A stretch of 64,000 nt of DNA from contig NZ_CP025512.1 in NCBI RefSeq assembly GCF_003491345.1, positions 62,001 through 126,000 of the forward strand. The letters run 5' to 3'. This document shows, piece by piece, positions 45,447-48,226 of the stretch. Every line of letters starts with the position of its first letter. Position 1 is the stretch's first letter. The translations under genes and the position numbers were made by a program. The DNA comes from Neorhizobium sp. SOG26 (lineage in GTDB: Bacteria; Pseudomonadota; Alphaproteobacteria; Rhizobiales; Rhizobiaceae). The notes beneath the pieces were generated by a model. It did not search any database and had not been told where the DNA came from. It saw nothing but the letters and a program-made list of their open reading frames with translations.

Positions 45447-45884
45447 TCAGCGCGCCTCGGCCTGCTCTTTCCATTCCGGCAGCGGGAAAATCCGGTCGTA
45501 AGCCCAGTTGAAGACGAAGGCATAGGCCACGTAGAACAGCGCAAAGGCGATATCCATCACCAGCGCTTCCCAGAGGCTGATGTCGAGATACCAGGCCACG
45601 AACGGCAGGAGCACGATCAGCAGGCCAAGCTCGAACAGGATCGAGTGCGCCACGCGGATCGCGGGTGATTTCTGCGTGCCGCCGGTCATCCGCCGCATCA
45701 GGTGGTCGAAGCCGAGATTGTAGAGGTAGTTCCAGCCGGTCGCGATGGTGGCGCCGCCGACGGCGATCACGCCAATGTCCTCGATCGGCTTGTGGAAGAA
45801 CAGCGCACCGAGCGGCGTGACGATCAGAAGAGCGATGATTTCGAAGCTTAAGGCGTGACGGATACGGTCGCGTGTCGAGCGCAT
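45447..45884 (-). CDS. PACE-family (AceI-like) multidrug/biocide efflux protein
   Basis: A 145-residue protein with four membrane helices in two tandem pairs, the layout of proteobacterial antimicrobial compound efflux transporters. The conserved acidic residue of helix 1 (Glu15 in AceI) is present as RHALSFEIIALL, with Glu exactly at position 15. Helix 2 carries GWNYLYNLGFD and helix 4 FNWAYDRIFPLP, both typical. It exports compounds such as chlorhexidine or short diamines by proton exchange in characterised relatives. Single gene, convergent with phoB. Confidence 0.88.
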   Translation of the reverse strand: MRSTRDRIRHALSFEIIALLIVTPLGALFFHKPIEDIGVIAVGGATIATGWNYLYNLGFDHLMRRMTGGTQKSPAIRVAHSILFELGLLIVLLPFVAWYLDISLWEALVMDIAFALFYVAYAFVFNWAYDRIFPLPEWKEQAEAR

Positions 45885-46029
45885 GGCAAACCCCTATACG
45901 GGTTGTTCCGGGTCGTCCCGAAGTTCAGGCCCATCAGGGGGAGGTCGTCCTCTCAAGGCTTGAGATAATCAATCCGGGGCGAGGGGACAAGAGCGCTGGC
46001 GCAAACCAGCTATGCCCGCGCGGCAGGCA

Positions 46030-46079: not shown

Positions 46080-46619
46080 TCAGGCGCGGGCAACGGCCCG
46101 GCGGCGGTCATGCACCGGCTGGTAGGCCAGTTTTGCATGGTAGCCGCAATAAGGAGAGGCTTCGCGGGCTTCGCAGCCGCAGAAGTGGAAGTCGTCCTTC
46201 AGCGGGTCGCCAACCGGCCACTTGCAGGTGCGCTCGGTCAGTTCCGTCAGGCCCAGGCGACGCGAGATCGGCACGACAACGTTGCTTGCCGGGCGGAATT
46301 CCATTTCCTCGTAGGCTTCGACTTCGATCTCTTCCTTGAGAACGGTCGCGCCAACCGGGCGGGTCACCGTCTTGGTGGCAACGCGCGAAGCGAAGTTCGG
46401 GGCGCGAGGCGCGGAGGTCGCGCGCTTGGGAGCCGCCGCACGATTGCTGGCTACCGAACCGCCACCTGCCTTGGCTCGGCCGGGCAGGCTGAGGCGGTGC
46501 ACCTTGCCGATCACGGCATTTCGGCTTACGCCTCCAAGTTGTGCCGCGATCTGGCTGGCGCTGAGGCCTTCGGCCCAAAGCTTCTTGAGTTTTTCGACGC
46601 GCTCGTCTGTCCAGTTCAT
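46080..46619 (-). CDS. gcrA: Cell cycle regulator GcrA
   Basis: A 179-residue GcrA-type regulator, which works with sigma-70 RNA polymerase at promoters carrying CcrM-methylated GANTC. The N-terminal DNA-binding domain starts MNWTDERVEKLKKLWAEGLSASQIAAQLGGVSRNAVIGKVHRL, the family hallmark. A Lys/Ala/Pro-rich linker follows, and the C-terminal domain has CKWPVGDP and FHFCGCEAREASPYCGYHAKLAY. ATG 46619 has GGAG 8 nt upstream; an in-frame start at 46694 is rejected. Its upstream region is packed with GANTC sites, a CtrA-like site and a 26-bp inverted repeat. Confidence 0.96.
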   Translation of the reverse strand: MNWTDERVEKLKKLWAEGLSASQIAAQLGGVSRNAVIGKVHRLSLPGRAKAGGGSVASNRAAAPKRATSAPRAPNFASRVATKTVTRPVGATVLKEEIEVEAYEEMEFRPASNVVVPISRRLGLTELTERTCKWPVGDPLKDDFHFCGCEAREASPYCGYHAKLAYQPVHDRRRAVARA

Positions 46620-46668
46620 GCCCGTTCTCCGCCTTTGAACGTTGCTGGCATGCAGAATCCTTCCACCC

Positions 46669-46694
46669 TTGCTGCGGAAAACATTCCGCAGCAA
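46669..46694. repeat. 26-bp inverted repeat upstream of gcrA
   Basis: TTGCTGCGGAA and TTCCGCAGCAA are perfect 11-bp arms around 4 nt, 50-75 bp before the gcrA ATG. There is no T-run. It could be an operator, or a strong hairpin in the gcrA 5' leader. Confidence 0.75.
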
Positions 46695-46741
46695 CCACTA
46701 TATCTATGATGTAGGTGACTAGTTCCGCCGCATGCGTTCTA

Positions 46742-46756
46742 GTAATTGATGATTAA
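46742..46756 (-). promoter_or_regulatory. CtrA-like site in the gcrA promoter region
   Basis: On the minus strand TTAA, 7 nt, TTAC matches 7 of 8 bases of the CtrA consensus TTAA-N7-TTAA. It lies 123-137 bp before the gcrA ATG. CtrA represses gcrA in Caulobacter. Confidence 0.45.
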
Positions 46757-46770
46757 CCTAGTGCCACGCT

Positions 46771-46846
46771 GACTCCGTGGCAAGAGTCGGTGGAATCAGC
46801 GCGAATCGATTTTGCGGTTTTCCCCAACTTGCTGTCCGGGCGAGTC
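46771..46846. promoter_or_regulatory. Cluster of CcrM (GANTC) sites between gcrA and argD
   Basis: Five GANTC sites fall in 76 bp: GACTC 46771, GAGTC 46784, GAATC 46793, GAATC 46803 and GAGTC 46842. A sixth (GAATC 46655) lies 36 bp before the gcrA ATG. By chance one per 256 bp is expected. CcrM methylates these sites and GcrA reads them. Confidence 0.8.
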
Positions 46847-46911: not shown

Positions 46912-46940
46912 TTGACAAGCCCGGGTGAAGGATCAATAGT
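46912..46940 (+). promoter_or_regulatory. Possible sigma-70 promoter before argD
   Basis: TTGACA (perfect -35), 17 bp, then AATAGT (4 of 6 to TATAAT). The -35 lies between two direct copies of AAGCCCGGG (46898 and 46917). If real, its transcript would start almost on the hairpin at 46947. Confidence 0.4.
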
Positions 46941-46946
46941 GCCACC

Positions 46947-46969
46947 GCCGCCCTGTGGGCGGCATTTTT
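46947..46969 (+). terminator. Rho-independent terminator in the argD leader
   Basis: GCCGCCC and GGGCGGC pair around TGT, then ATTTTT. It points rightward between two divergent genes, so no annotated gene ends there. It may end a small RNA or attenuate argD. Confidence 0.7.
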
Positions 46970-47029: not shown

Positions 47030-48226
47030 ATGGCTGAATCGGCGCTTTTCGACACTTTTGCCCGGGCTCCGCTGCGCTTCGAGCGAGGCGAGGGTGTCTG
47101 GCTCGTGACGGAAGGTGGCGAGCGATATCTCGACTTCGGTTCCGGCATCGCGGTCAACTCGCTCGGTCACGCGCATCCGCACCTCGTCGAGGCGCTGAAG
47201 TCGCAAGCCGAAAAAGTCTGGCATACATCGAACCTGTTCGATGTGACCGGCCAGGACACGCTGTCGCGCCGGCTGGCTGACAACTCCTTTGCGGACAAGG
47301 TGTTCTTCACGAACTCCGGTGCGGAAGCGCTGGAATGCGCCATCAAGACCGCGCGCCGCTACCAGTACACCAAGGGCCACCCGGACCGCTTCCACATCAT
47401 CACCTTCGAAGGCGCCTTCCACGGCCGCACCTTGGCGACGATCGCGGCCGGCGGCCAGGCAAAGTACCTGGAAGGCTTTGGCCCCAAGGTCCAAGGTTTC
47501 GACCAGGTCCCGTTCGGTGATGTCGAGGCTCTGAAGGCGGCGATCAACGAGAACACCGCAGCGATCCTCATCGAGCCGATTCAGGGCGAGGGCGGTATCC
47601 GTCCGGTGCCGAAGGAATTCCTCCAGACGCTGCGCAAGCTCTGCGACGACAACGGCCTGCTGCTGATCTTCGACGAAGTCCAGTGCGGCATGGGCCGTAC
47701 CGGCAAGCTTTTCGCCCATGAACTGACCGGCGTGACCCCGGACATCATGGCGCTCGCCAAGGGTATCGGCGGCGGCTATCCGCTGGGCGCCTGCCTTGCC
47801 ACGGCAGAAGCTGCCTCGGGCATGACGGCTGGCACGCATGGAACGACCTACGGGGGCAACCCGCTCGGCATGGCGGTCGGCAATGCCGTCCTCGATGTCA
47901 TGCTGGAGGAGGGGTTCCTGGAGCGTGTCCGCGACGTCTCGCTCTTCTTCCGCCAGGGGCTCGCAAGCCTCAAGGATCGTTTCCCGAACATCATCGAGGA
48001 TATTCGCGGCGAAGGCCTCCTGCTCGGCATCAAGGCCAAGGTGCCTGCCGGCGAACTCGTGGGCGCCATGCGCGACGAGCACATGCTGGCCGTACCGGCC
48101 GGAGATAACGTCGTGCGCCTGCTGCCGCCGTTGACGGTCACCGTTGATGAGGCTCGCGAGGGTCTGGCACGCATCGAGAAGGCAGCGGAAAAGCTCACCG
48201 CAGCCAACATGAAGAAATCGGCCTGA
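47030..48226 (+). CDS. argD: Acetylornithine aminotransferase
   Basis: PLP enzyme that transaminates N-acetylglutamate semialdehyde to acetylornithine in arginine synthesis. The 398-residue length is that of bacterial ArgD. Marks are [69 protein letters not shown] and the PLP-Lys in [15 protein letters not shown]. The ATG at 47030 (MAESALF) has AGGAG 10 nt upstream; earlier starts at 46955 or 47003 would run into the leader terminator or lack a ribosome site. It leads argD-argF-hslO. Confidence 0.94.

Follow-up and report, generated by a model that had tools for sequence, protein, structure and literature searches.

The gene gcrA, which encodes the cell-cycle sigma70 cofactor GcrA, is preceded in Neorhizobium sp. 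SOG26 by six GANTC sites, the target sites of the methyltransferase CcrM, and these sites appear to be built into its promoter. They lie within the 64-kb stretch of chromosome analysed here (the window, taken at its full length), at offsets of -227, -188, -178, -169, -156 and -40 from the gcrA start codon. It is probable that methylation of this core promoter by CcrM represses gcrA and that passage of the replication fork relieves the repression. Placing the sites within the promoter makes use of a transcription start site (TSS) carried over from Sinorhizobium meliloti; on this placement the -169 site stands flush against the upstream edge of the -35 hexamer (the flush site), and the -156 site, second of the pair and 13 bp on, falls in the spacer between -35 and -10 (the spacer site).

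All six sites are found where the first-pass annotation of the sequence had put them (46655, 46771, 46784, 46793, 46803 and 46842). The background it assumed, about 0.75 per 192 bp, is close to the 0.94 given by dinucleotide shuffles of the window (312 sites in 64 kb), but the true genome background is lower, with 61 sites observed in the window and 985 in an 824-kb sample of the genome, that is 1.20 per kb or 0.23 per 192 bp (the sample joins the window with 38 further 20-kb stretches and covers about 18% of the genome). The genome avoids the motif, and the Poisson probability of at least six sites in 192 bp is about 1.7e-7, as reckoned for a single stretch of that length. Four sites in 37 bp, or six in 192 bp, occur in the 824 kb at gcrA alone. 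The runners-up are a cluster with five sites in 75 bp, against five in 76 bp at gcrA, which ties with gcrA at 100 bp and has six sites in 199 bp (L247), and another with five in 156 bp (L246); the gcrA cluster is ahead of the others, though not by far.

Conservation was assessed on a main set of 166 upstream regions of the family Rhizobiaceae, in which some genomes and named records are of the same strain, so that the number of independent genomes is below 166; they reduce to 154 distinct segments, forming 108 clusters at 90%, 64 at 80% and 25 at 60% identity outside the sites. The material comprised 30 of the 40 relatives' genomes, supplied as loci, a wider search that found gcrA in 198 of 199 genomes and gave upstream regions from 29 new loci and 40 that were fetched (37 parsed), and a search of the class that matched 115 of 190 genomes, with loci taken for the best 30 of the 115. 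Eight loci in which the gcrA start was unparsed were dropped (L021, L101, L105, L128, L176, L179, L208 and L148), L166 was too short for the 260-bp count, L102 and L175 were not anchored, and L025-L030, which belong to other families, were kept out of the Rhizobiaceae counts.

Within the genus all six sites are present in each of the 23 parsed loci (of 24, our own included), with the five upstream sites spaced 39-10-9-13. Across the family the core TTGnCAnnGANTC is found in 160 of the 166 regions, the 13-bp GANTC pair in 152 (as compared with 158 of 33,200 single-base shuffles) and the 10-9-13 array in 106. Counting by cluster, the spacer site is kept in 61 of the 64 clusters formed at 80% identity and the flush site in 56, followed by -188 (39), -178 (35) and the distal -227 site (8); at 60% identity the figures for the 25 clusters are 22, 19, 10, 10 and 1. 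Most Mesorhizobium loci have no -178 site and keep counterparts of -188 (frequently 1 bp closer), -169, -156 and -40, and Phyllobacterium keeps chiefly the 13-bp pair and a leader site. The first-pass annotation had proposed a count of GANTC against the flanks across relatives and had let its case hang in part on the positions being shared with them; the 260 bp upstream of gcrA hold 18.9 sites per kb, compared with 0.94 in the remaining parts of the 77 named loci concerned, a 20-fold difference, and the positions are indeed shared. Beyond the family the pair is present in three of 34 upstream regions (28 of the class sample and six from other families of the order), namely L147, where it lies far upstream at -230, L026 and L028; TTGnCAnnGANTC is present in L026 and L029, and thus pair or core is found in three of the six other order families examined. 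As the 27 class members outside the family average 1.2 sites in the same 260 bp, against the conservation seen within it, the array is mainly a Rhizobiaceae feature, of which the flush and spacer sites are best kept.

The coordinates of the array, of the promoter elements assigned around it and of the two genes are collected in the table. The S. meliloti TSS lies at -122 (PMC4414408) and fits the -10 and -35 assigned here; it was carried over through the array, which in two Ensifer loci is 5 bp nearer the start codon. TGnCA, within the -35, is the most conserved four-of-five word among 136 in the region. A simple consensus promoter scan did not call the gcrA promoter (TAGGTT / TTGCCA).

Features of the gcrA-argD region, with positions in the window.
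Feature	Coordinates	Strand	Basis
gcrA, cell-cycle sigma70 cofactor GcrA, 179 aa	46080..46619	-	NF050816 sig70cofacGcrA E 2e-44, 151.9 bits, under curated cut-off 280; PF07750 above cut-off
leader GATTC, offset -40 from gcrA start codon	46655..46659	-	GANTC at -60 to -25 in 162/166 upstream regions; N = T in 168/176 such sites
conserved leader block GCATGCGGCGGAACTAGTCACC	46714..46735	-	conservation over 129 rows; putative EcpR1 small RNA target equivalent, by position
CtrA-like box TTAA-N7-TTAC, over -10 and start site	46742..46756	-	sequence
putative gcrA transcription start (A)	46746..46747	-	S. meliloti TSS carried over through array
putative -10 hexamer TAGGTT, 17 bp from -35	46755..46760	-	column conservation; distance to carried-over TSS
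spacer GAGTC in -35/-10 spacer, putatively -29 to -25, offset -156	46771..46775	-	intact in 151-152/154 distinct segments
putative -35 hexamer TTGCCA	46778..46783	-	TTG and CA columns in 153-154 of 154
GACTC flush upstream of -35, putatively -42 to -38, offset -169	46784..46788	-	intact in 142/154
GATTC, offset -178, putatively -51 to -47	46793..46797	-	exact place intact in 102/154
GATTC, offset -188, putatively -61 to -57	46803..46807	-	exact place intact in 107/154; 1 bp nearer in many Mesorhizobium loci
block AGCAAGTTGGGGAAAACC, putatively -87 to -70, candidate regulator site	46816..46833	-	highly conserved columns, among region's most conserved words
distal GACTC, offset -227, putative start -100	46842..46846	-	intact in 44/154, subset of relatives
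predicted argD promoter TTGACA-N17-AATAGT, no GANTC inside	46912..46940	+	consensus scan; prediction only
argD, acetylornithine transaminase, divergent neighbour	47030..48226	+	NF002325 659 bits

A GANTC cluster at gcrA and its repression by methylation are already published for a relative, and are not new as fact. Agrobacterium tumefaciens has six GANTC within 250 bp upstream of gcrA (PMC11514494, Nucleic Acids Research 2024), activity of its gcrA promoter (PG) fused to lacZ is lower with active CcrM, both in A. tumefaciens and in Escherichia coli (PMC11514494), and depletion of CcrM in Agrobacterium raises gcrA 2.8-fold (PMC11514494); release of the gcrA promoter by hemimethylation was proposed by the same authors (PMC11514494). 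Brilli et al. 2010 (PMC2877005) had earlier counted GANTC upstream of cell-cycle genes, and judged that control was not derivable from these counts. What looks new here is the fixed geometry, the depth of conservation and the recurrence at repE; a search of openly licensed papers, supplementary files aside, turned up neither the fixed spacing nor the likeness between gcrA and repE. The conserved placement in the core promoter and the published Agrobacterium reporter data (PMC11514494) together give good support to methylation control or timing of gcrA, which was one of the possibilities raised in the first-pass annotation.

The genome has a ccrM homologue (L279; NF050803, DnaMtaseCcrMCaul, 631.7 bits, E 2.7e-190, under the curated cut-off of 830), and the six sites would be its targets. 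When these very sites are fully methylated, as they would be in G1 and predivisional cells, the N6-methyl groups beside the -35 and in the spacer would hinder initiation by the housekeeping holoenzyme. Passage of the replication fork would leave the array hemimethylated and the promoter freed, giving a burst of GcrA, until CcrM closes the promoter again at a late stage of the cycle. The flush and spacer sites would be the working core, with -178, -188 and -227 reinforcing it in part of the family; a second obstacle may come from the CtrA-like box that covers the start. Direct hindrance of the polymerase is favoured over a reader protein, as the step presumably affected, because the published effect is also seen in E. 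coli.

A number of observations weigh against this proposal. The N of the core sites is fixed, with C in 142 of 142 intact flush sites and G in 152 of 152 intact spacer sites, which exceeds what methylation by itself needs. The -178 and -188 sites are absent from their exact place in about a third of segments and the distal site from 110 of 154, and a few relatives are almost bare, L119 (Pseudochrobactrum) having no GANTC in 450 bp and L207 one. The leader site is too far downstream for initiation and is left unexplained by the proposal. As a general rule for the genome, GANTC followed by TTG is not enriched (25 seen, 30 expected). Among Caulobacter cell-cycle promoters, a GANTC outside the -35/-10 stretch goes with the lowest activity at 40-60 min and one inside it with the highest (PMC4287350), and the gcrA promoter has sites both inside and outside; furthermore the ctrA P1 promoter, the nearest analogue, is activated by GcrA and is therefore no argument for a step free of a reader. 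Finally, the lowering by methylation is published for A. tumefaciens only, and the evidence from Neorhizobium consists of the sites, the promoter geometry, its conservation and a ccrM gene.

The geometry of the core recurs at what are probably repE promoters. On the chromid of the same genome, antisense between repB and repC (L281:1378-1410, third contig, which holds the sole repC match of the genome), lies GACTC-TTGACTGT-GATTC followed by a third GANTC on the presumed -10, and from its place this element would be the repE promoter. The full 13-bp pair is present at the putative repE promoter in 8 of 12 plasmids fetched (taken at even steps from 24 listed, of 931 matching records), and the spacer and -10 GANTC are kept in all 12 plasmids and the chromid. 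That repE promoters are rich in GANTC was known (PMC6090056), with three sites in the A. tumefaciens promoter PE (PMC11514494); the shared geometry appears to be new, as far as the literature search goes. Another 13-bp GANTC pair occurs in the 824-kb sample (L220), and since it has no flush TTG the module GANTC-TTG-N5-GANTC is seen there solely at gcrA. We offer only tentatively the idea that this module is a portable class of promoter, its -35 clamped by a pair of CcrM sites so that transcription senses fork passage directly with no reader, and that it evolved separately for chromosomal gcrA and for the repE antisense RNA of repABC chromids and plasmids. If this were so, one mark would time both a regulator and the replication brake of a second replicon.

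The two runner-up clusters would then be a further use of such arrays, linked to the SOS response. The first (L247:17145-17343, at about 3.017 Mb of the chromosome) has densely packed GANTC ahead of an imuA-imuB cassette, beside a GTTC-N7-GTTC word, and the second (L246:12794-12949, at about 2.693 Mb) lies upstream of another imuA-imuB cassette and has GTTC-N7-GTTC and TTGACTC words; the ImuA model matches of the cassettes are 46.6 and 60.5 bits, under the cut-off of 150. GTTC-N7-GTTC is presumably a LexA-type word, and in loci of the L247 type a GANTC lies 10 bp upstream of it in 17 of 17 examined (our own included; 17 of 30 loci), with the other spacings largely constant. Depletion of CcrM in Agrobacterium raises three ImuA orthologues, which the authors classed with SOS-related responses (PMC11514494), and direct methylation control of imuA is a possibility.

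Of the alternatives to direct repression by methylation, the one with most in its favour is autoregulation, also suggested in the first-pass annotation, in which sigma70-bound GcrA recognises the methylated array and acts on the gcrA promoter, more probably as repressor than as activator. Methylation-dependent DNA binding is known for GcrA orthologues from other Alphaproteobacteria (PMC3667746), and the flush and spacer geometry is also that of the putative repE promoters, for which repression by GcrA has been proposed in Agrobacterium (PMC11514494). YGAKTCK, the Caulobacter context for activation by GcrA as taken from published papers, is matched by the -188 site in 72 of 117 cases, compared with 10 of the 61 GANTC in the window, and -188 is alone among our six sites in fitting it. 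The other sites mostly fail this context (flush 0/152, spacer 3/161, -178 22/112, distal -227 4/50), and methylation lowers the promoter in E. coli, which has no Alphaproteobacterial regulators (PMC11514494), so that autoregulation is considered rather unlikely, although it deserves a place beside the preferred reading. Should direct repression hold, the view that GcrA has to be the reader of the methyl marks at gcrA would need correcting.

The conserved words might also reflect chiefly the binding of a sequence-specific regulator, or constraint on the promoter, with GANTC partly incidental. The fixed N in the flush and spacer sites and the inverted repeat GACTC-N8-GAGTC that they form would suit such a protein, and the adjoining block AGTTGGGGAAAAC, which has no GANTC, is nearly as conserved. 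MucR is able to protect GANTC from CcrM in both Caulobacter and S. meliloti (PMC5172544), and a bound protein could therefore also keep the gcrA sites unmethylated. This explanation has to account for several GANTC standing together in a single promoter when the genome avoids the motif, for the GATTC, rather than GAGTC, in the spacer of repE promoters of the same geometry, for an N that at -188 is T in 86 cases and A in 21, and for the published response to CcrM (PMC11514494); it is judged unlikely.

A longer inverted repeat, TGCCACG-CTGACTC-CGTGGCA at 46763-46783, was tried as a candidate element and rejected, not being conserved beyond GANTC and the -35. The 12-base core of the AGCAAGTTGGGGAAAACC block, AGTTGGGGAAAA, for which a DnaA box is a conceivable identity, occurs a single time in the whole genome. 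The NtrX word CAAACCTTG, listed for S. meliloti gcrA in PMC9223101, is not present in the 411-bp gcrA-argD interval (bounded by the starts at 46619, minus strand, and 47030, plus strand), and of CAA-N(1-5)-TTG words the same interval holds CAAGTTG alone. For the CtrA-like box, 87 of 164 regions have TTAA-N7-TTAA with at most one mismatch in the 42 bp that follow the core, a raw count uncorrected for chance. A CtrA motif lies across the S. meliloti gcrA TSS (PMC3616915), but contrary to such a box gcrA in Rhizobiales is predicted to be free of CtrA control (PMC2877005), and the two mentions of gcrA in an S. meliloti CtrA paper do not give it as a CtrA target (PMC4433202). Downstream, the EcpR1 small RNA site of S. 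meliloti gcrA is 13 nt from the TSS (PMC4414408), and no RNA match was found inside the interval with Rfam.

That the array serves argD, or both divergent genes, is very improbable. argD is divergent from gcrA in 77 of 77 named loci tested, and the five upstream sites are about 70-140 bp from the predicted argD promoter. The distance from the core to the gcrA start is constant (mean 161, sd 5 bp, in 74 of the 77 loci) and that to argD is variable (mean 261, sd 49 bp, in the same number), therefore the geometry is fixed to gcrA and not to argD, which was rejected as target on this test of distance. As the predicted argD promoter also has no GANTC inside it, methylation control or timing of argD, which the first-pass annotation had named as well, finds no support. 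Chance clustering in an A+T-richer intergenic region, where GANTC is commoner than within genes (PMC3973325, PMC8725594), is refuted by the preservation of exact positions across the family, beside so few sites in the same 260 bp outside it, and can be given practically no weight.

A terminator-like hairpin with a T run lies at 46947-46968 on the plus strand, immediately behind the predicted argD promoter and ahead of the argD start, and could point to an attenuator or a very short RNA. On the other side of the array, a Guanidine-II riboswitch match at 45908-45956 on the minus strand (31.5 bits, the gathering score being 32) is directly upstream of a gene for a PACE efflux transporter at 45447-45884. 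The chromosome contig is 3.37 Mb long and begins with dnaA, from which gcrA is 0.11 Mb away. All 40 relatives' genomes searched contain a gcrA match, with an additional weak match in two of them, and the closest named GcrA among the matches listed is that of Neorhizobium tomejilense, at 85% identity.

Were direct repression by methylation to hold, the array may make replication itself the signal for GcrA synthesis, which bears upon the timing of second and later replicons after the main chromosome in rhizobia, and, with its geometry repeated at the repE brake of repABC replicons, it offers defined individual sites for testing.

Among known systems the closest is PG of A. tumefaciens, an orthologous promoter in the same family that likewise has six GANTC in 250 bp and for which release by hemimethylation was proposed (PMC11514494). 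The repE promoter is alike in that GACTC stands flush to a -35 (TTGAC) and the spacer holds another GANTC, 13 bp further on, and differs in that its third GANTC is on the -10 and not upstream, the likeness being one assessed within the module. In Caulobacter, the ctrA P1 promoter carries a GANTC at -28/-29, and its activation follows hemimethylation of the locus (PMC4287350); its site near -28 is matched here by the spacer site, putatively at -29 to -25, and it too has a CtrA half site near the start, although it is a promoter of a different gene, with one site named where gcrA has an array of several, and has GcrA as its activator. The Caulobacter GcrA-sigma70 promoters with YGAKTCK similarly carry GANTC in a sigma70-type promoter, but the flush and spacer sites of gcrA are without YGAKTCK and the published effect of methylation is opposite in direction.
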